From positions 1 through 64,000 of the forward strand of contig NZ_PRLC01000005.1 of NCBI RefSeq assembly GCF_003287455.1: a stretch of 64,000 bases of DNA. The letters run 5' to 3'. Shown here in pieces: positions 7,614 to 22,267 of this stretch. How positions within the stretch are numbered: the stretch's first letter is position 1; each line of letters begins with the position of its first letter. A model generated the notes under the pieces. It had not been told where the DNA came from. It saw only the letters and a list, made by a program, of their open reading frames with translations, and did no database searches. Origin of the DNA: Faecalibacterium hattorii. Lineage in GTDB: Bacteria > Bacillota > Clostridia > Oscillospirales > Ruminococcaceae. The translations under genes were made by a program, and so were the position numbers.

Positions 7614-8453
7614 ATGAGGACGATTTCCGCACAGGAGATCACAAGCACCGTGGCCCGGCTCTGCATCGAGGCCAACACCCACCTGCCCAAGGATGTGGAA
7701 GCGGCCCTTGCCAAAGCGCGGGAGGAAGAGCCGTGGCCGCTGGCCAAGACTACCCTCGACCTGCTCTGGTCGAACCTCGGCGCGGCGGCGGAGAAGGCTC
7801 TGCCCATCTGTCAGGACACTGGTATGGCCTGTGTCTTCGTGGAGCTGGGCACCGACGTCCACATCGATGGCAGCTTTGAGGCCGCCATCCACGAGGGCGT
7901 CCGCCGCGGCTACACCGACGGCTATCTGCGCAAGAGCATCGTGGCCGACCCCCTGCGCCGGGGCAACACCGGCGACAACACCCCCGCCGCCATCACCGTG
8001 CATCTGGTGGACGGCGACGGCTGCACCATCACGGTAGCCCCCAAAGGCTTCGGCAGCGAGAACATGAGCCGCATCCAGATGCTCAAGCCCGCCGACGGCG
8101 TGGAGGGCTTCAAGAAGTTCGTGCTGGAGACCGTGACGCTGGCGGGTTCGAACCCCTGCCCGCCCATCGTGCTGGGCATCGGTGTGGGCGGCAGCTTCGA
8201 TAAGGTGGCCTATCTCGCCAAAAAGGCCTTGCTCCGCCCGCTGGATGTGCCCAACCCCGACCCCTACTATGCCGCCTTGGAGCAGGAGCTGCTGGCCGCC
8301 GTCAACGAGACGGGCATCGGCCCGCAGGGCTTCGGCGGCAAAACCACCTGTCTGGGCCTTGCCATCGAGCAGATGCCCACCCACGTGGCGGGTCTGCCCG
8401 TGGCCGTGAATGTTTCGTGCCATGTGACACGGAGAGCAACCGCGAGGATCTGA
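7614..8453 (+). CDS. Class I fumarate hydratase, alpha (N-terminal) subunit
   Basis: Alpha subunit of the two-subunit, oxygen-sensitive [4Fe-4S] fumarase interconverting fumarate and malate. Cluster cysteines are visible in LPICQDTGMAC, the NPCPPIVLGIGVGG segment and VSCHVTR near the C-terminus. The 279-residue length is normal. GGAGG lies upstream of the ATG. It sits between malic enzyme and the beta subunit in one operon. A REP-like hairpin occupies the gap to the beta gene. It is clearly different from the ttdA-type paralogue at 17059-17958: the tail is short and the Cys-Trp-Ser-His motif of TtdA is missing. The substrate is therefore called fumarate from family and operon context, not from direct evidence. 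Confidence 0.88.
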   Translation: MRTISAQEITSTVARLCIEANTHLPKDVEAALAKAREEEPWPLAKTTLDLLWSNLGAAAEKALPICQDTGMACVFVELGTDVHIDGSFEAAIHEGVRRGYTDGYLRKSIVADPLRRGNTGDNTPAAITVHLVDGDGCTITVAPKGFGSENMSRIQMLKPADGVEGFKKFVLETVTLAGSNPCPPIVLGIGVGGSFDKVAYLAKKALLRPLDVPNPDPYYAALEQELLAAVNETGIGPQGFGGKTTCLGLAIEQMPTHVAGLPVAVNVSCHVTRRATARI

Positions 8454-14098: not shown

Positions 14099-14429
14099 CT
14101 GAGGAGGAAAACTTGCCGGGACAATAAAAACTGCGCTCCATAGCGGTTTTCTCTTTTTTCGCAACAGTCTGTTTTGCAGCCAGATATCGGGTAGATTCGG
14201 GCCTGTTTCATTTCGTATCTTCATAATACAACCACTCTTATGAAAATGGAAGGGGGTAATCCGTCGGTTCTTTCCAAATTTTCAAGTAGCAAACGGAATG
14301 GAGCAAACACCATGCACAATTTTCAGAGCTTGTTTTGCGCAGAAACTGAGGCTGGATGCGGTCTGGTTCAGCACTTGGCCGCAGATGGACCGGAGGCATT
14401 TCGACACACATCTTCTTGTTCTCGTAATT
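14099..14429. other. Gene-free stretch
   Basis: No coding frame with a binding site or recognisable composition is visible. Short open frames here run into the dispersed repeat downstream and look accidental. Confidence 0.5.
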
Positions 14430-14531
14430 TGTCGGGGCAAGGCCCCTCCATCTTGCTTACGCAAGACCGTTCTGTCGCTTAAAAGCCCCACTGGGGCTTT
14501 CATTGCTGCGCTCCACTGCGCAAACGCGAAC
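14430..14531. repeat. Dispersed ~102 bp repeat, family II copy 1
   Basis: It runs from TGTCGGGGCAAGGCCCCTCC through TCTTGCTTACGCAAGACCG, AAAAGCCCCACTGGGGCTTT to CAAACGCGAAC. It matches 22165-22267 with few differences. It contains three small palindromes (GGGGC/GCCCC, CTTGC/GCAAG, AGCCCCACTGGGGCT). Confidence 0.8.
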
Positions 14532-14746: not shown

Positions 14747-16021
14747 TCAGGCAAAAGGATAAAGTGTCGGCAGGAAAAATACGGACACGACGATGAGGAT
14801 GAGCGCCAGCGGGGTACCACACTTGAGATAATCCTTCAAGGTGTATCCGCCCGGCTCGATGATCATGATCTGGCAGGGAGCTGCCATGGGGGTCATGATG
14901 GACACACAGCTGGCTGTGATCACGCCGACCACGGCAGCACGGGGGTCTACGCCCATGCGGATACAGGCGGAAGTGACCAGTGGGATGAAGATGGTCAGGG
15001 TAGCCAGATTGGACATAACCTGCGTCAGAATGAAGGGAACAAGGAAGAACACCAGCATAATGATGTACGGATTGGTAGTATCGCCCAGCAGGCGGATCAT
15101 CCAGTCTGCCACCACATCGCCTGCACCGGTGGTCTGGATGGCGTCCGACAGAGCCAGCACACCGGCAAACAGGAAAATGGTCGGCTGGTGGATGGAGTTG
15201 AGGGCTTCCTTCTCGGTCAGCACACCCGTCAACACCAGAGCGGTAGCGCCGATGCAGGAAGTGAGATACATCTTGACACCAATGACATTTTCCAGCAGCA
15301 TCATTGCAATGGAGACCAGAACGATCAGGACAGCCAGATTGCGCTTGAAGGGGCTGAGTTTTTCGCTCTCAGAAGCCGTATGTGCTGCATCTGAAAACTG
15401 CTCGTTGGGAATATCCGGCATCAGCTTATAGCCAACAAAGGTCATGTACAGGATGGCAATGGTCAGCATCGGGATGCGCGCAATGGTGAAATCCCAGATG
15501 TGCAGCGGTGTCGGTGCGCCGGCCTGCATCATGACATCGTTCCATGCCATGTTGGAAGCACCCTGACCGAGAAAGGTCATCTGGGTGGCAATGTTGGCAC
15601 AGGCCATAGAAGGATACAGCAGCTTGCTGCGGCTTACGCCGATATCGTTCGCAATGCATACCAGCAGAGGGATCATGATAGCGGCAGTTGCGGTGGCACT
15701 GGTGATGGCGCCCAGAAACGCACCTGCCACACAGGAAAGAAAAATCAGCATCCGCATATTGTTCTTGTAGCGGATGACCAGACTCTGGGCTTTGTCAATC
15801 AGGGGCGTTTTGGTCAGCCCTGCACCGATGACGAACATGGCTACGAACATGACCACGTTCGTGTTGATGAAGCCGCCAAAGGCCTCGGCAGGGGTCTTGA
15901 TGCCGGTGAGGATCAGCGCCAGAATGATGCCGGTAGAAATGACCGAGAACGGGACTTTACCGGATACAAAGGCGATGATCGTTACAAGCAGGATGACCAG
16001 TGTGATCTCCAATGGGCTCAT
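14747..16021 (-). CDS. DASS/SLC13-type anion permease 1 (tartrate island)
   Basis: Polytopic inner-membrane carrier of the DASS/ArsB-NhaD superfamily for di- or tricarboxylates, about 11 predicted helices. Typical features are an N-terminal helix pair (ITLVILLVTIIAFVSGKVP), the repeat loops GAFLGAITSATATAAIMIP and FLGQGASNM, and a C-terminal PMAAPCQIMIIEPGGYTLKDY. The start is the ATG after AGGAGG at 9 nt; 28 upstream codons are excluded. At 424 residues it is shorter than E. coli TtdT. It is transcribed in the same direction as ttdAB but after a 411 nt gap with its own operator candidate. The neighbourhood suggests tartrate, malate or succinate as substrate. Confidence 0.85.
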   Translation of the reverse strand: MSPLEITLVILLVTIIAFVSGKVPFSVISTGIILALILTGIKTPAEAFGGFINTNVVMFVAMFVIGAGLTKTPLIDKAQSLVIRYKNNMRMLIFLSCVAGAFLGAITSATATAAIMIPLLVCIANDIGVSRSKLLYPSMACANIATQMTFLGQGASNMAWNDVMMQAGAPTPLHIWDFTIARIPMLTIAILYMTFVGYKLMPDIPNEQFSDAAHTASESEKLSPFKRNLAVLIVLVSIAMMLLENVIGVKMYLTSCIGATALVLTGVLTEKEALNSIHQPTIFLFAGVLALSDAIQTTGAGDVVADWMIRLLGDTTNPYIIMLVFFLVPFILTQVMSNLATLTIFIPLVTSACIRMGVDPRAAVVGVITASCVSIMTPMAAPCQIMIIEPGGYTLKDYLKCGTPLALILIVVSVFFLPTLYPFA

Positions 16022-16096
16022 TTGGGTTGTCCTCCTGTGGATTACTTCCACCTTGCAGATGCAAAGCAGTGGCACTTGAATGTTTATATTTGATAA

Positions 16097-16124
16097 TGTA
16101 TCCAATAAACAAGAAAAGGATACA
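16097..16124. promoter_or_regulatory. Candidate GntR operator upstream of DASS permease 1
   Basis: TGTATCC (16097-16103), 14 bp, GGATACA (16118-16124), a perfect inverted repeat. The 16-mer TTTGATAATGTATCCA is identical at 19510-19525. Confidence 0.6.
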
Positions 16125-16266
16125 CCGAAAGACCACGCTTGTCAAGGGATTTGTTATACTTTTGTCGAAAAATACAATTTTCCAAAGGAACTTTATATAA
16201 GGTGTGTAGAACAAAAAGAACGGGCAAGATCGTCTTTGTCTGCATTTCCTTCAAGGAACAAATAAC

Positions 16267-16303
16267 GCCCCGGAACCCTTTACGCGGAAAAGGGTTCCGG
16301 GGC
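16267..16303. terminator. 15 bp perfect inverted repeat after ttdB
   Basis: GCCCCGGAACCCTTT and AAAGGGTTCCGGGGC, 7 nt loop, about 130 nt beyond the ttdB stop. There is no proper T-tract on either strand (GTTATTTG on the minus strand), so it may be a terminator without a strong U-run, a processing site or a regulator site. Confidence 0.5.
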
Positions 16304-16432
16304 AAATTGCGGAGAACAAATACGTGGCAAATTAAGCTGAGCAAGAAACTTGGGGTAAGAAAAACGATTTAGGAGAATCGTATGAAAGGAAATAATGAGT
16401 GAAGTCTGTCCCCCGCTGAGAGGATATCCGGA

Positions 16433-17059
16433 TTACTTAATAAAGCCGACGTGCTTGCAGATCTCTTCGACGGCCTTATCCTTGCGCTGATTGAAGATGA
16501 CCTTGTTCTCTTCGAACAGGTTGCGGCCCTCAGTGTCGATGGAAACGATCAGGGGGCCAAACTCGTTAACGTGGCAGTGCCACAGAGTTTCCGGCATACC
16601 GAGGTCACGCCACTGGGCCTCGACGATCTCCTCCACCTCGGTGGCAGCCACAACGGCGTTACCGGCAGGGAAGACACAGTGGATGGCACCGAACTCCTTG
16701 CAGGCGCGCTCGGTGTTGGGGCCCATGCCGCCCTTGCCCACGATGACGCGGACACCGGACTTCTGCACGAACTCATACTCGAACTTCTCCATGCGCATGG
16801 AGGTGGTGGGGCCCACAGACACCATCTCGAACTTGTCGTTCTCCAGCGGGCGGATGATGGGACCGGCGTGGAAGATGGCTGCGTCCTTCACGTCCACAGG
16901 CAGCGGGCGGCCCTCTTCCACGAGGCGGCGGTGCGCCACATCGCGGCAGGTGGTCAGGTCGCCGTTCAGGTAAACGACATCACCGATATGGATGTCCTTC
17001 AGGTCTTCTGCGGAGACCGGAGTGGTAAGAATTTTCTTTCCGTCTTTGATGGTCAGCAT
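16433..17059 (-). CDS. ttdB: L(+)-tartrate dehydratase, beta subunit
   Basis: Beta subunit of the [4Fe-4S] enzyme converting L-tartrate to oxaloacetate. It resembles E. coli TtdB throughout: [85 protein letters not shown] and VEEICKHV at the end. The 208 residues agree with TtdB (201). Its ATG overlaps the ttdA stop by one base (TAATG), so translation is coupled. A fumarase activity cannot be excluded for this superfamily, but the separate fumarase at 7.6-9.1 kb and the island context favour tartrate. Confidence 0.88.
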
Positions 17060-17958
17060 TACAAAGTCACCCCCGAATGAGTATCAATGGTGTAGTTCAG
17101 ATCTTTATCAAAAATAATGTGGCCGCGGCGATGGCTCCAGCAGCCCATGTTGACGGCAACGCCGATGGCAGAAGGATGGCGGGCAGTGTTCTCAATGTGC
17201 ACGCCCATGACGGAGTACTTGCCGCCCATGCCCTGAGGACCAAGGCCGATGGAGTTGATGCCGTCCTCCAGCAGCTTCTCCATATAGGCTGCGCGCTCGT
17301 TCTCGTTGTGGCTGCCCAGAGGACGCATCAGAGCCTTCTTGGACAGCAGAGCGGCGGTCTCAACAGAGGTGGCAACGCCCACGCCCACCAGCAGCGGAGG
17401 ACAGGCATTGATGCCGTAGCTGGTCATGACATCCATGACGAACTTGGTCACACCTTCGTAACCTGCACCGGGCATCAGAACCATGGCCTTGCCCGGCAGG
17501 GTGCAGCCGCCGCCTGCCATATAAGCGTAGATCTCACACTTGTCGCTGTTCGGGATGATATCCCACCAGACGGTAGGGGTGCCCTTGCCGACATTGCGGC
17601 CGGTGTTGAACTCATCGAAGGTTTCAACGCTGTTGTGGCGCAGAGGTGCTTCGAAGGTGGCCTTGACCACAGCCTCCTTCAGCAGACCCTCCACCTCGCC
17701 GATGAGGGGGAAGTCCACGCCGCACTTTACCCAGAACTGGAGCACACCAGTGTCTTGGCAGCTGGGGCGGTTCAGTTCCTTGGCCAGCTTCTGGTTCCGC
17801 TTCATGGTCTCATAAATGACCTTGGACAGCGGTGCGTCCTCCTGTGCGCCCAGCTCATCGAGCTTGGCAATGATGTCGTCCGGCAGCACCTTGGCGATAT
17901 GGCTCACAAAGTTCGCCATATAGGTCGTCATCTGCTGCACCTGTTCTTGCTTGTTCAT
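17059..17958 (-). CDS. ttdA: L(+)-tartrate dehydratase, alpha subunit
   Basis: Fe-S-binding alpha subunit partner of TtdB. TtdA-type features are [75 protein letters not shown] and the cluster-ligand segment [13 protein letters not shown]. The 299 residues match E. coli TtdA (303). AAGGAGG lies upstream of the ATG. It follows DASS permease 2 by 68 nt and overlaps ttdB, forming a permease-ttdA-ttdB operon. Confidence 0.88.
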
Positions 17959-18026
17959 TCCAATGCCTCCTTAGATTTGGTACATTTTGCGCGTTGGTTC
18001 ACTCATATTCAACGTTCCTGTCCGCT

Positions 18027-19295
18027 TTACTGCGGGAAGAACGGGAATGCGATGGGAAGGATCACCATGCTGACAACCGTTGCGATGAGGATGAGGGGCA
18101 GGCCAGCCTTGGCATAATCCTTGAAGGTGTACCCGCCGGCGGAAACCACCATGGTGTTGGCGGGCATACCGATGGGTGTTGCGTAAGCGCAGGAGCCGCC
18201 GATGACACAAGCCATCAGGACGGCGCGGGGGTCGGCACCCATGCCCTGTGCGATGCTCAGGCAGATGGGAACCATCAGAGCGGTGGTTGCGGTGTTGGAC
18301 ATGAAGTTGGTCATGACGCAGCAGAGCAGGAAGACCACCAGAGTCAGGACGTAGGGAGAGGGATTCTCGCCCAGAGCACCAATGACGATGTTTGCAATCT
18401 CTGCTCCTGCCCCGGTCTTATCCAGTGCAGAGGCCAGAGACAGCGTACCACCGAAGAGGAAGATGGTCTTGAGGTCGATGGACTTCAGGGCGTCTTTCTC
18501 GGAGATGACACCGGTGAGGATCAGAGCCAGCGCACCGATACAGCCGGTGATGCAGAGTTTGATGCCAATCTGCTTTTCAAAAATCATGCCCAACAGGGTG
18601 AGCACGAGGATGACAAGGGAGAGCACCTGTTTCCACTTGGGAACATTGCTGAAGTCCTGCTCGCCGCCGAAGGAGTCATCATCGGAGACGGGGTGGTTGG
18701 GCAGCAGCTTCATGCCAAGGGTGGCATAGAAGAGGATGCCGGCGGCGAGGATGGGCAGGCCCACGATAGCGTACTCGAAGAAGCCGAAGGACATCCCGAT
18801 CTCACCCAGAGCACTCTGGGCGATGAGGTTGCCCGGTGCGCCGATGAGGGAAAGGTTGCCGCCCATGGCCGCTGCAAATACCAGCGGCATCAGCAGCTTG
18901 GAGCGGGCATAGCCGGACTTTGCCGCAATGCCGATGACCACGGGGATCAGGACGGCGGCGGTGCCGGTGTTGGAGAGCACACCGCTCATCAGGCCAACGA
19001 TGACCATGATGGCCACGATGAGGCTGCGCTCGGATTTGGCAAAGTGGGTAACGATGCCGCCGATCTTGTTGGCCATACCTGTTTCAAACAGGGCACCGCC
19101 GACGATGAACATGGCGACGAACAGGATGACGTTGCTGTCGATGAAGCCCGCAAAAGCAGTCTTGATGTCCAGAACGCCGGTAACGACCAGACCGATACAG
19201 ACGATCATAGACGTTACGCCGAGGGGGATCTTCTCAAACACGAACATGACGACCGCGAAGAGAAGAAAGAGTAGGGTGATAGTTGCTGCTGACAT
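18027..19295 (-). CDS. DASS/SLC13-type anion permease 2 (tartrate island)
   Basis: Second DASS-type carrier of the island, heading the operon with ttdA and ttdB. About 11 hydrophobic helices; motifs include FGGTLSLASALDKTGAG, MTNFMSNTATTALMVPICLS and CAYATPIGMPANTMVVSAGGY. The start is ATG after AAGGAGG at 8 nt, giving 422 residues; an upstream in-frame ATG lies in the leader. It shares the C-terminal GGYTFKDYAKAG pattern with permease 1 (GGYTLKDYLKCG). Two carriers may allow uptake plus exchange, or different dicarboxylates. A long leader with a CCCGGAA/TTCCGGG hairpin (19449-19470) precedes it. Confidence 0.85.
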   Translation of the reverse strand: MSAATITLLFLLFAVVMFVFEKIPLGVTSMIVCIGLVVTGVLDIKTAFAGFIDSNVILFVAMFIVGGALFETGMANKIGGIVTHFAKSERSLIVAIMVIVGLMSGVLSNTGTAAVLIPVVIGIAAKSGYARSKLLMPLVFAAAMGGNLSLIGAPGNLIAQSALGEIGMSFGFFEYAIVGLPILAAGILFYATLGMKLLPNHPVSDDDSFGGEQDFSNVPKWKQVLSLVILVLTLLGMIFEKQIGIKLCITGCIGALALILTGVISEKDALKSIDLKTIFLFGGTLSLASALDKTGAGAEIANIVIGALGENPSPYVLTLVVFLLCCVMTNFMSNTATTALMVPICLSIAQGMGADPRAVLMACVIGGSCAYATPIGMPANTMVVSAGGYTFKDYAKAGLPLILIATVVSMVILPIAFPFFPQ

Positions 19296-19325
19296 ACCGG
19301 GGAATCCTCCTTTGATGAAATATAA

Positions 19326-19333
19326 TGTATCCA
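19326..19333. promoter_or_regulatory. Isolated TGTATCCA half-site in the leader of DASS permease 2
   Basis: The same octamer that opens the two full palindromes, here without a clear partner, about 30 nt before the start codon of permease 2. Confidence 0.35.
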
Positions 19334-19517
19334 TTTTATCGGAGCAAAACAGCCCTGACTTTCGGAACGCCCCAGCTGCACCTCGTTGTGCAGAGTCTTT
19401 GCCGCCGTGCTGTGCCCTCACAGCCCTTCTTTGTTCTGGAAGGATTTGCCCGGAACCTTAGAATTCCGGGAATCTCGGCAGCGTCTTTTTTGAATTTTTA
19501 TATCTAATCTTTGATAA

Positions 19518-19545
19518 TGTATCCACTTGACGACACGAGAATACA
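19518..19545. promoter_or_regulatory. Candidate GntR operator upstream of the permease-ttdAB operon
   Basis: TGTATCC (19518-19524), 14 bp, GAATACA (19539-19545): the same spacing as at 16097-16124 with one mismatch, preceded by the identical TTTGATAA. Confidence 0.6.
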
Positions 19546-19670
19546 CCCGAAACAGAGATTTGTCAATCCCTTTTTTCGAGTTTTGTCGCATTGCACGGAT
19601 TATGTACCAATTTTTGTGCACGCCAGACAAACAGTAGGATACAAGAAAATCTCCCTCCGCCGCCTTCTGC

Positions 19671-19722: not shown

Positions 19723-20343
19723 TTATTCCAGCCGCTTTTTGAAATACCCCTCGGCACAGTAAATGGCACCACAGGGATTATGCGCCAGAACGCGATCCTT
19801 GGCCACCAGCGTTGTGACCATGGCGTCCGAGTACTTATAAAACATCGAGTCGTGTCCCACACAAAGTCCGACCTCAATGTTGAACTCGGTGTGCTGTTCG
19901 TTCAGAAGCTTTGCCTGTGCGATGGGGTTGCACATGGCCTCAAATTCGCCGGGGTGGATCTTGACCTCTTCCGGGATGCCCACTTCTTCTTTGGAGATGC
20001 CGCCGGTCTTGCAGATGACCGACACCACCTCAAACCCCTGCGCACGGAGCAGGTCGGCCACGATGCGGGCTTCCTTCCGCAGACCTTTGCAGAATGCAAG
20101 ACCCAGCTTGTGGTAGCCCATCCGCTTGCAGAACTCCACCGTCTCCTTCAGGCGGGGCCATTGACAGTAGCCAAGCCCCTCAATGGCCGAACAGTTGACG
20201 TAGAAATCGTGATTCTCAGGCAAATCATAGCCGGCGCGGGCGGCCTCCATCACCGAAGCATTCCGCATAGGGCAGTTTTTGGGCATCTTTTCCGGCTCGT
20301 TGTTGGCGCAGGCCAGAACCGTACAGTTCGCACAGGTATACAC
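19723..20343 (-). CDS. DUF1847 cysteine-rich putative metal-binding protein
   Basis: Cytoplasmic protein of 206 residues with an N-terminal cluster YTCANCTVLACANN and KNCPMRN that looks like a metal or Fe-S site. Further cysteines occur in VNCSAIEGLGYC, LAFCKGLRKEA, ICKTGGISKEE, NIEVGLCVGHDSMFYKYSD and AHNPCGAIYCAEGY. This pattern is typical of DUF1847; its function is not established. It begins 19 nt after the GntR gene at 20363, so it is in the regulator operon. A role in maturing or protecting the [4Fe-4S] tartrate dehydratase is possible but speculative. Confidence 0.8.
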   Translation of the reverse strand: MYTCANCTVLACANNEPEKMPKNCPMRNASVMEAARAGYDLPENHDFYVNCSAIEGLGYCQWPRLKETVEFCKRMGYHKLGLAFCKGLRKEARIVADLLRAQGFEVVSVICKTGGISKEEVGIPEEVKIHPGEFEAMCNPIAQAKLLNEQHTEFNIEVGLCVGHDSMFYKYSDAMVTTLVAKDRVLAHNPCGAIYCAEGYFKKRLE

Positions 20344-20362: not shown

Positions 20363-21007
20363 TTATAAATAATAGGTCAGCGCATCGTCCATACTGCGGT
20401 AGATGTGTTTTTCCATTTCAGCCCGTGCTTCCAGCGCATCCCGTGCTTCCAGCGCCGCATAGATCTTTTTATGCTCGCTCTGGGAGTTGAGGGCATAGTC
20501 CAACTCGCTCATTTCCACACCAACGGACAGGCCATTCCACAGCTCCGAGAGAAGATTGCGCATTTTTTCATTGCCGGAAGCTTCCCAGATCTCAAAATGG
20601 AAGGACTGGTTGTAGTCAGTATAATTTCCGGCCTGCTGAAGAGAAAGAGCCTCCTCAGCAGTATCCACGCAGTTTTTGATCTTGGACAGGTCAGCGTTGT
20701 TCTGGCAGCAGAGCATACATGCCGTCCCTTCCAAGGCAGCGCGCAGCTGGTAGTGCTCCCGAATCGTTTTTTCCGTTACGCCCAGCACAATGGCGCACTT
20801 GTTTTGCTTGACTTCCAGCAGACCGTCACGGGCAAGGATCTGAAAGGCCTCTCGCACCGGCGTGACCGACACGCCCAGTTCCTGTGCGGTGTTTTCCAGC
20901 GTGAGTTCTGCGCCCTCCGGGATGCTTTTTGAGATAATGGCTTTCCGCAAAGCGGAAGCTACCCGCTCGCGGGCGGGCAGCAGCTTAATGGGTTTCAGTC
21001 CCAGCAT
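20363..21007 (-). CDS. GntR-family transcriptional regulator (FadR/FCD type) A
   Basis: DNA-binding regulator with a winged helix at 1-75 (ERVASALRKAIISKSIPEGA, LGVSVTPVREAFQILARDGLL) and an all-helical FCD effector domain. FCD metal and ligand residues are suggested by FHFEIWEASGNEKM and HIYRSMDD. It is 214 residues long, starting at ATG with AAGGAG 7 nt upstream. It overlaps the end of the second GntR gene and is followed by DUF1847. It is probably a local regulator of the tartrate genes. Confidence 0.88.
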   Translation of the reverse strand: MLGLKPIKLLPARERVASALRKAIISKSIPEGAELTLENTAQELGVSVTPVREAFQILARDGLLEVKQNKCAIVLGVTEKTIREHYQLRAALEGTACMLCCQNNADLSKIKNCVDTAEEALSLQQAGNYTDYNQSFHFEIWEASGNEKMRNLLSELWNGLSVGVEMSELDYALNSQSEHKKIYAALEARDALEARAEMEKHIYRSMDDALTYYL

Positions 21008-21563
21008 ATTGACTCCTTATCGTTAAAATCAGATGCAGCAGTTCTTCTTCATAGGTGTTCCATGCATCCAGCACATCAGGGGAACCTTGACGGTCCAGCA
21101 TCAGCAGGCGGGCAAGCCGGTCGTTCACCGGCGCAGGACGTGCGCTCACGGCAAAGGCAATGTAGGTCTCCTGAATGCTCTCCAGCAGCTTGCGGTGCAG
21201 CGGATAGGGCAGGACGGTTCGCAGGGTACGGTGCTGCAGCATCTCGTCTCCTGCCAACATCGCATCCTGCGGCAGCGCACGCATAGCCTGCCGTTCCAAC
21301 TGAGCCCCCAATGCCAGAATTTGGCGCAGTGTCTCTTCGGTCAAATCTGCCGCTTTTATCCGATTGTTGGGCAGGCGGATGATAAGACCCTGATATTCAA
21401 GGATCATCAAGGCCTCCCGCACCGGCATCCGGGAGACACCGAGACTCTCTGCCAGTTCGTTCTGGGTCATTTCGGTGCCCGCCGGGATCTGCCCAGATAA
21501 AATGGCCTGCTGCAGGGCTTCCACCACACCGCCGTTTTTCTTCTGGATGCCGATATATTCCAT
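20985..21563 (-). CDS. GntR-family transcriptional regulator B
   Basis: Second GntR-type protein, 192 residues. The winged helix reads VVEALQQAILSGQIPAGTEM, LAESLGVSRMPVREALMILE and LIIRLPNNRIKA. The C-terminal ~115 residues are helical but lack clear FCD metal motifs, so the effector domain may be divergent. Its 3' end overlaps the next GntR start by 23 nt, implying co-translation. Tandem GntR genes could form a heterodimer or act on different operators. Confidence 0.85.
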   Translation of the reverse strand: MEYIGIQKKNGGVVEALQQAILSGQIPAGTEMTQNELAESLGVSRMPVREALMILEYQGLIIRLPNNRIKAADLTEETLRQILALGAQLERQAMRALPQDAMLAGDEMLQHRTLRTVLPYPLHRKLLESIQETYIAFAVSARPAPVNDRLARLLMLDRQGSPDVLDAWNTYEEELLHLILTIRSQYAGTETH

Positions 21564-21591: not shown

Positions 21592-21613
21592 TATTGTATC
21601 CAATTTTACAATA
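21592..21613. promoter_or_regulatory. Palindrome upstream of GntR B
   Basis: TATTGT-N10-ACAATA, perfect arms, containing TGTATCCA (21595-21602), the octamer shared with the other island operators. It is probably an autoregulatory site. Confidence 0.5.
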
Positions 21614-21741
21614 AAAAGCAATACTTCCTTTATGACAAACAAAAATACCCGGCAGATTCCTTATGAAAAATCTGCCGGATATAGACCGGATGCCCTTGGG
21701 GTGTTCCATTCTGAAAAATTGAAGGGCAAATGCAAGCTGTG

Positions 21742-22014: not shown

Positions 22015-22164
22015 AAGGAAACCTCCATGTTTTTCACATTTACTTCTTCTGCGGTGGAAAGTTCCGGCTGTCCGTTTGCAAATACATAAAGCCACTTCTT
22101 GACGCAGCCCTTTGCAGGTCTACATCCATCCACCACACGCCCGATTCTTACACCAAACGCGAAC

Positions 22165-22267
22165 TTGTCGGGGCGGGGCCCCTCCATCTTGCTTACGCAA
22201 GACCGTTCGGTCGCTTAAAAGCCCCACTGGGGCTTTCATTGCTCCGCTTCGCTGCGCAAACGCGAAC
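22165..22267. repeat. Dispersed ~103 bp repeat, family II copy 2
   Basis: Same element as 14430-14531. Here AAACGCGAAC occurs on both sides (22155-22164 and 22258-22267), so the unit is bounded by a 10 bp direct repeat. The surrounding 22015-22350 holds no other recognisable feature. Confidence 0.8.

Follow-up and report, generated by a model that had tools for sequence, protein, structure and literature searches.

A candidate operator for a TtdW/TtdV-type GntR repressor pair in the tartrate island of Faecalibacterium hattorii

Introduction

In Salmonella Typhimurium, the ttdBAUVW genes are controlled by two GntR repressors, both of which are required and whose repression is relieved by L-tartrate (PMC11237755, mBio 2024). 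In the gel shifts described in that report, TtdW bound the probe closest to ttdU, no probe was bound by TtdV on its own, and the two proteins together gave a slower band. The operator of this pair appears to be unmapped, since the terms "footprint", "palindrom" and "consensus" do not occur in the main text of the report. Two other GntR systems serve as references for DNA binding. NanR is reported to adopt an asymmetric pose on DNA, with three dimers loading cooperatively (PMC8012715), and the FadR subfamily is described as having a class with a 2-nt GT-AC spacing and extra boxes that often lie 7-12 nt from the centre (PMC4494728). Here we describe a repeated non-coding element in a tartrate gene island of Faecalibacterium hattorii (assembly GCF_003287455.1), located in a window of 64,000 nucleotides (contig NZ_PRLC01000005.1, positions 1 to 64,000). 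The genes of the island run along the minus strand in the order R1, R2, DUF1847, permease 2, ttdA, ttdB and permease 1. The element is probably the operator of a TtdW/TtdV-type GntR repressor pair (R1/R2) regulating the uptake and dehydration of L-tartrate. It provides a candidate operator for the TtdVW tartrate repressors, and the same element is found in gut commensals with the same pathway.

Repeated element in the window and host genome

An earlier note on this DNA had reported the same inverted repeat, TGTATCC-N14-GGATACA, upstream of permease 1 and of the permease 2-ttdA-ttdB operon. This repeat was exact at the first site (16097-16124) and carried one mismatch at the second (19518-19545), where the right arm is GAATACA. 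The other sequence matches in the note were reproduced: TTTGATAA lies directly before both sites (16089-16096 and 19510-19517), and TGTATCCA is also present in the permease-2 leader and upstream of the GntR genes. The window contains exactly four copies of TGTATCCA, which start at 16097, 19326, 19518 and 21595 and all lie within the island. Shuffled windows contained a mean of 0.96 copies, and 3 of 100 shuffles reached four. The dyad pattern, with three mismatches allowed, was not significant in the window (two found versus 1.30 expected). A sharper motif, TGGATACANTAT, has five exact copies in the 2.79-Mb genome, comprising the four island sites and one copy inside an open reading frame (ORF). 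The candidate cores at the island sites are as follows.

16097..16104, minus strand: candidate operator core TGGATACA of the permease-1 promoter (the left arm of the inverted repeat)
19518..19525, minus strand: candidate operator core TGGATACA of the permease2-ttdA-ttdB promoter
19326..19333, minus strand: second core, within the leader of permease 2 and approximately 30 nt ahead of the start codon, present in all three Faecalibacterium islands
21593..21602, minus strand: candidate operator core TGGATACAAT of the R1-R2 promoter, including TACAAT (21593-21598) as the probable -10 box

The permease-2 leader between its two cores (19294-19532, minus strand) had a predicted fold of -75.1 kcal/mol against a shuffle mean of -58.95 kcal/mol (z = -3.84). 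No Rfam match was found in this leader at the gathering threshold, a tRNA being the sole Rfam match in the window, and the three available leader sequences were too similar for a covariation test.

Conservation of the element across islands

Islands were searched with the R2 protein as bait rather than with the motif. R2 matched six loci in named genomes, 3 of the 31 genomes of the genus and 10 of 148 in the family (E-value of 1e-20 for both), and 2 of 391 in the class and 8 of 397 in the Anaerostipes family (the family of G178; 1e-45 for both). Further matches were found in 1 of 64 genomes in the Blautia genus (that of G181) and in 4 of 392 in the order of G178; all these counts include centres and repeats. 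Full stretches were obtained for three of the ten family matches (G127, G043 and G086), and the weaker matches L013-L018 served only as comparison sequences. Two more distant relatives, L135 (39%) and L136 (33%), had no ttd homologue in the fetched stretches. The resulting sample consisted of 19 islands with an adjacent regulator pair from 18 genomes, including Salmonella and Klebsiella aerogenes, which were examined last.

In this phylogenetic footprinting, TGGATACA was present ahead of a catabolic gene in all 19 adjacent-pair islands (21 sites in total, 19 plus two from Salmonella and K. aerogenes), and each of these islands had a catabolic copy of TGGATACANTAT with at most one mismatch. This supports the local GntR regulon that the earlier note had proposed and had made dependent on the motif being retained in orthologous islands. 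The catabolic copy precedes permease 2 or ttdA in 18 islands and another gene in one (G1132, locus L146). The latter gene is a putative phosphoenolpyruvate carboxykinase gene, and no ttd homologue was found within the fetched 16.5 kb of this locus. Altogether, 39 sites were assigned in 19 sources, 35 of them with exact TGGATACANTAT and four with one mismatch. The same 337,850 bases contained 11 other matches (one exact and ten with one mismatch), a background of approximately 0.008 per 250 bp. The motif string was derived from the window, its sister genomes and L023-L026, and G127 had also been seen at that stage. It was then found in nine of nine previously unseen pair islands, three of these with one mismatch, and without mismatch in both Salmonella and K. 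aerogenes. In the Salmonella record (Senftenberg), the motif lies 41 bp upstream of ttdU. In Anaerostipes (L023), one copy stands ahead of the operon for a sodium-pumping oxaloacetate decarboxylase.

The exact 19-base consensus TGGATACAWWATCANANAT was present in 9 of the 397 genomes of the G178 family, namely in eight of the eight with R2, which is partly by construction as such islands were the source of the pattern, and in one of the 389 without R2 (G659, where the match is inside an ORF). Eleven loci were inspected, comprising the G659 match, five loci with TGTATACA and five other near misses. For the TGTATACA loci, Pfam detected no GntR domain in seven ORFs from three of them (L191-L193). 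The recognition-helix pattern was found in none of L191-L195, which is a weak test because the pattern also missed the known Blautia R2. The shorter motif also has one exact copy in G164, a genome of the genus that lacks R2. In the two ttd plasmid loci without an R2 match (Priestia and Liquorilactobacillus), the intergenic DNA preceding ttdA contained no exact core; in Liquorilactobacillus, TGGATACA overlaps the start codon annotated for ttdA.

With R2 present in so few genomes of the genus, the distribution of the island is patchy, and this would also fit the mere transfer or shared descent of one island, in which case a non-coding match would carry no functional information. We consider this explanation very improbable. 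The promoters around the core vary between genera while the core stays constant, and R1 outside Faecalibacterium is only 27-51% identical to that of the window over the aligned parts. Furthermore, the copies precede different genes, including the regulators, the permease, ttdA and the oxaloacetate decarboxylase.

Promoter geometry and the two site classes

The promoters assigned to the island are as follows.

16117..16145, minus strand: permease-1 promoter TTGACA-17-TATCCT, whose extended -10 box is the right arm of the exact inverted repeat
19538..19566, minus strand: permease2-ttdAB promoter TTGACA-17-TATTCT, whose extended -10 box is the mismatched right arm
21616-21621, minus strand: weak -35 hexamer TTGCTT of the R1-R2 promoter, 17 nt ahead of TACAAT

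The two best promoter matches between 13000 and 22400 were TTGACA-17-TATTCT and TTGACA-17-TATCCT, both on the gene strand and both matching 10 of 12 positions. The scan alone is weak evidence, since it gave seven matches versus 5.0 in shuffles. The right arms of the inverted repeat are the extended -10 boxes of these promoters, and the remaining element is TGGATACA-TTATCAAA on the gene strand, starting 12 nt past the -10 box. Conservation across the islands covers the left arm and TTTGATAA, with 7-bp repeats as an extension; the right arm shows no conservation beyond Faecalibacterium. At the N14 distance, an arm resembling TGTATYC was observed in only four of the 19 sites, all from Faecalibacterium, and the other 15 matched one to five of the seven bases.

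TGTATCC-N14-GGATACA as a single palindromic operator, both arms of which would be bound by a GntR dimer, fits the exact repeat at the first site and the single mismatch at the second. However, its right arm coincides with the -10 boxes of the two best promoters of the region, and the footprinting contradicts it. In addition, no partner arm accompanies the copy in the permease-2 leader or that at the GntR promoter, even when three mismatches are allowed in the whole pattern. We dropped the inverted-repeat reading after the footprinting, as the right arm was not conserved across orthologous islands, and now give it hardly any chance.

With positions counted from the core, the information content of the 19 catabolic sites, which include three near-identical Faecalibacterium rows, showed TTGAC starting at -41 and TATnnT spanning -18 to -13. 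In the regulator promoters (15 sites), TTKAC starts at -19, and TACAAT lies within the core 17 nt past that hexamer and is probably the -10 box. One of these 15 sites (L023:1815) precedes an alpha/beta hydrolase gene instead of the regulators, and in G1332 a core near the R1 start, TTGTATCCAA, is in reverse orientation. Among the three Faecalibacterium islands, the permease-1 promoter together with its candidate operator (16082-16145) was found in the window's genome only. G162 and G176 had no promoter or operator before permease 1, though the gene is present (98-99%), and this difference is a gain or loss of a regulatory module.

This geometry suggests how the R1/R2 pair might act, if it binds the element as we infer. 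At the catabolic promoters, a complex on the core, about 12 nt past the -10 box, would cover the transcription start and cause a steric block at and after the start. At the regulator promoter, the same complex would occlude the -10 box, and with the probable -10 box inside the core, the R1-R2 pair would repress itself. Tartrate would presumably act as the inducer here as well, releasing the repressor complex.

Seven-base direct repeats

Two stretches of the window following the catabolic cores contain heptads.

16082..16096, minus strand: T plus the heptads TATCAAA and TATAAAC, after the permease-1 core
19489..19517, minus strand: T plus the heptads TATCAAA, GATTAGA, TATAAAA and ATTCAAA, after the permease-2 core

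The repeat statistics were calculated for 18 catabolic sites, with G162, G176 and K. aerogenes dropped. Direct repeats of approximately WATCAAA extend past the core in the catabolic copies, with z values of 9.4 at lag 7 and 8.3 at lag 14 over +9 to +44. Over +16 to +44, a span that was not used for the choice of sites, the corresponding values were 5.4 and 4.1. The lag-7 identity was 0.53, and none of 2000 AT-matched draws from the same loci reached the lag-7 or lag-14 value. Past +44, z fell to 0.0, and the regulator copies (13 sites) gave a lag-7 z of 1.5. Some copies, such as that of G127, have weak repeats. The sites are homologous, and thus the repeats may have arisen once.

The repeats lie past the inferred start and are therefore probably transcribed, and AT-rich, unstructured 5' ends are common. 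They could thus act in an RNA leader, or as plain A+T-rich start-site sequence, rather than as DNA boxes for a protein. We regard this as improbable, because the periodicity peaks sharply at 7 and 14, has no equal in AT-matched windows of the same loci and disappears past +44; the Rfam result for the window also speaks against it.

The regulators R1 and R2

20985..21563, minus strand: R1, a TtdW-type GntR protein with the recognition-helix Arg retained and an FCD-like domain without two histidines
20363..21007, minus strand: R2, a TtdV-type GntR/FCD protein with the FCD histidines retained and the recognition-helix Arg replaced by Val

Both R1 and R2 are GntR proteins, and the Pfam FCD domain was detected in R2 only. 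We equate R1 with TtdW and R2 with TtdV on the basis of the published gene order, ttdBAUVW, applied to the Senftenberg record, and the tree supports this assignment. The upstream Salmonella gene (TtdW by gene order) fell in the R1 clade (17 rows, support 100/100) and the next gene (TtdV) in the R2 clade (19 rows, 98/93). One exceptional R1 row, L137, lay outside the R1 clade, and L133_R1 formed a long branch. The model of R1 was GntR-like (six sequences; mean predicted local distance difference test score, 87.7). It compared with PDB structures at template modelling (TM) scores of 0.51-0.58 for VanR and 0.55-0.60 for TM0439, with a large root mean square deviation.

The two proteins have complementary residue losses. 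In FadR and AraR, the contact of the recognition-helix Arg with G is reported to be the main base-specific contact (PMC4494728). All of the 18 R1 rows and none of the 19 R2 rows have this Arg; the G162 and G176 rows were left out of all residue counts. The FCD residues counted, taken here as the metal ligands of the FCD family, were all retained in R2 (19 of 19 for the Asn, the second ligand, which is His, and the third and fourth His). The numbers for R1 were 1 of 18 for the Asn, 15 of 18 for the second ligand, 1 of 18 for the third His and 2 of 18 for the fourth. These losses suggest a hetero-oligomer with divided labour, in line with the published gel shifts: R1 would read the DNA, R2 would carry the intact effector (metal) site, and both would be required.

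A more specific model can be put forward tentatively, and we would not yet bet on it. R1 and R2 would have become an obligate hetero-oligomer by complementary decay, R1 DNA-reading and R2 effector-sensing; the asymmetric TGGATACA would nucleate the complex, which would then spread along the 7-bp ladder over the start, from gut Clostridia to Enterobacteriaceae. Alternatively, the proteins may act as separate homodimers, with R1 on the TGGATACA core, sufficient for autoregulation, and R2 on the A+T-rich 7-bp repeats of the catabolic promoters. The 7-bp period in catabolic and not in regulator copies fits this arrangement, as do the binding of TtdW alone and the joining of TtdV to it in the published gel shifts. 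In R2, the Arg that makes the G contacts is missing, and extra boxes 7-12 nt from the centre are common at the FadR-subfamily sites described (PMC4494728). On the other hand, TtdV alone bound no published probe and the binding of R2 to the repeats is purely putative, and we consider separate homodimers possible but unlikely.

Two other genomes carry related arrangements. Blautia has a lone, Arg-less R2 with no adjacent R1, and TGTATACAATAT lies ahead of an amino-acid permease gene there (L027 8763); a further GntR-like match occurs elsewhere in that genome. G043 encodes two GntR proteins approximately 10 kb apart (L137 5364-6023 and 16447-17100), a more distant one with Asn in place of the Arg and another that has the Arg. 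In this genome, TGGATACA stands ahead of the Arg-less GntR gene and ahead of a 2HCT transporter gene (L137 12643; L011 2178-2185), and a ttdA homologue (50%) lies behind the Arg-bearing GntR gene. We considered whether operator symmetry tracks the presence of R1; the lone R2 with TGTATACA is a single case, and the non-adjacent GntR pair of G043 has TGGATACA.

Several points weigh against the element being the operator of the R1/R2 pair. The 19-base motif at one mismatch matches 114 of the 397 genomes, and AT-rich genomes carry the 12-base motif beyond the island (two of six exact sites in G178, and more in G179 and G180). Because the sites, like the proteins, have a common ancestry, the counts do not represent independent events. 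Salmonella, K. aerogenes, G127 and G1132 yielded no copy at the regulator promoter, and the window's own regulator -35 hexamer (TTGCTT) is weak. Furthermore, the Arg-less lone R2 of Blautia beside a TGTATACA site implies that R2 might bind alone in some hosts.

Island layout and neighbouring genes

The remaining genes of the island are as follows.

19723..20343, minus strand: DUF1847 protein, adjoining the regulator pair in the window and in some other islands
18027..19298, minus strand: permease 2, DASS family (TtdU-type), by NCBIfam and Pfam profiles
17059..17958, minus strand: ttdA, L(+)-tartrate dehydratase alpha, by NCBIfam profile
16433..17059, minus strand: ttdB, L(+)-tartrate dehydratase beta, by NCBIfam profile
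14747..16021, minus strand: permease 1, CitMHS/DASS-like, under the DASS curated cut-off

ttdA and ttdB scored above the NCBIfam equivalog cut-offs (NF006084, 536.2 versus 365; NF006082, 364.5 versus 264). With TIGR00785 (DASS; curated cut-off 198.6), permease 2 passed at 214.4 and permease 1 stayed below at 124.5, passing Pfam CitMHS. The gene names given in the earlier note were borne out for ttdA, ttdB and permease 2, and permease 1 is described here as CitMHS/DASS-like. The layout is of the TtdV/TtdW type, with an adjacent GntR gene pair beside a permease, ttdA and ttdB, and with DUF1847 between the pair and permease 2. Of 18 islands examined, 7 have a DUF1847 gene in the vicinity of the regulator pair (window, G162, G176, Hungatella, G928, G820 and G127).

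R2 and a close ttdA (99-100%) co-occur in the same 3 of the 31 genomes of the genus. A fumarase-type second TtdA homologue (34%) is encoded on the plus strand of the window at 7629-8438; 27 of the 31 genomes have one distant TtdA homologue of this kind, and the three with the close ttdA have both. A 106-bp intergenic repeat flanks the island in the same orientation (14426-14531 and 22162-22267, 93.4% identity), and is possibly a repeat element bounding it.

Comparison with known systems

The core TGGATACA resembles a FadR-subfamily box pair with one half altered. Compared with the consensus given for that subfamily, TKGT/ACMA (PMC4494728), the ACAA half of the core fits. However, the assigned sites consistently have TGG as the other half, where TKGT would be expected. 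The canonical palindrome is thus absent: the consensus is matched by the ACA half of (T)TGGATACA(A) but not by the TGG half.

NanR, with its (GGTATA)3 operator (PMC8012715), is likewise a GntR protein described with a direct-repeat operator. In that system, one protein acts on GGTATA-type repeats, whereas the present system has two proteins, a different core and A+T-rich repeats of 7 bp. Direct repeats of the NanR type, TGGTATAW, were not observed, the period here being 7 with a unit of approximately WATCAAA. ExuR and UxuR of Escherichia coli are two GntR paralogues reported to heterodimerise (PMC9369180), in which they resemble the proposed R1/R2 pair, but they are regulators of hexuronate genes.

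The closest system is TtdV/TtdW of Salmonella. The Senftenberg record has the same gene order, with a tandem GntR pair by the permease, ttdA and ttdB; the R1 and R2 clades are shared, and the same 12-base motif stands before ttdU. Salmonella differs from the window in having no regulator-promoter copy. In the text of PMC11237755, autoregulation is left open and activation by ArcA is reported for Salmonella. The complementary losses in R1 and R2 offer a testable model of a GntR repressor with DNA reading and sensing assigned to separate subunits, which, if true, would explain the need for both genes in Salmonella.

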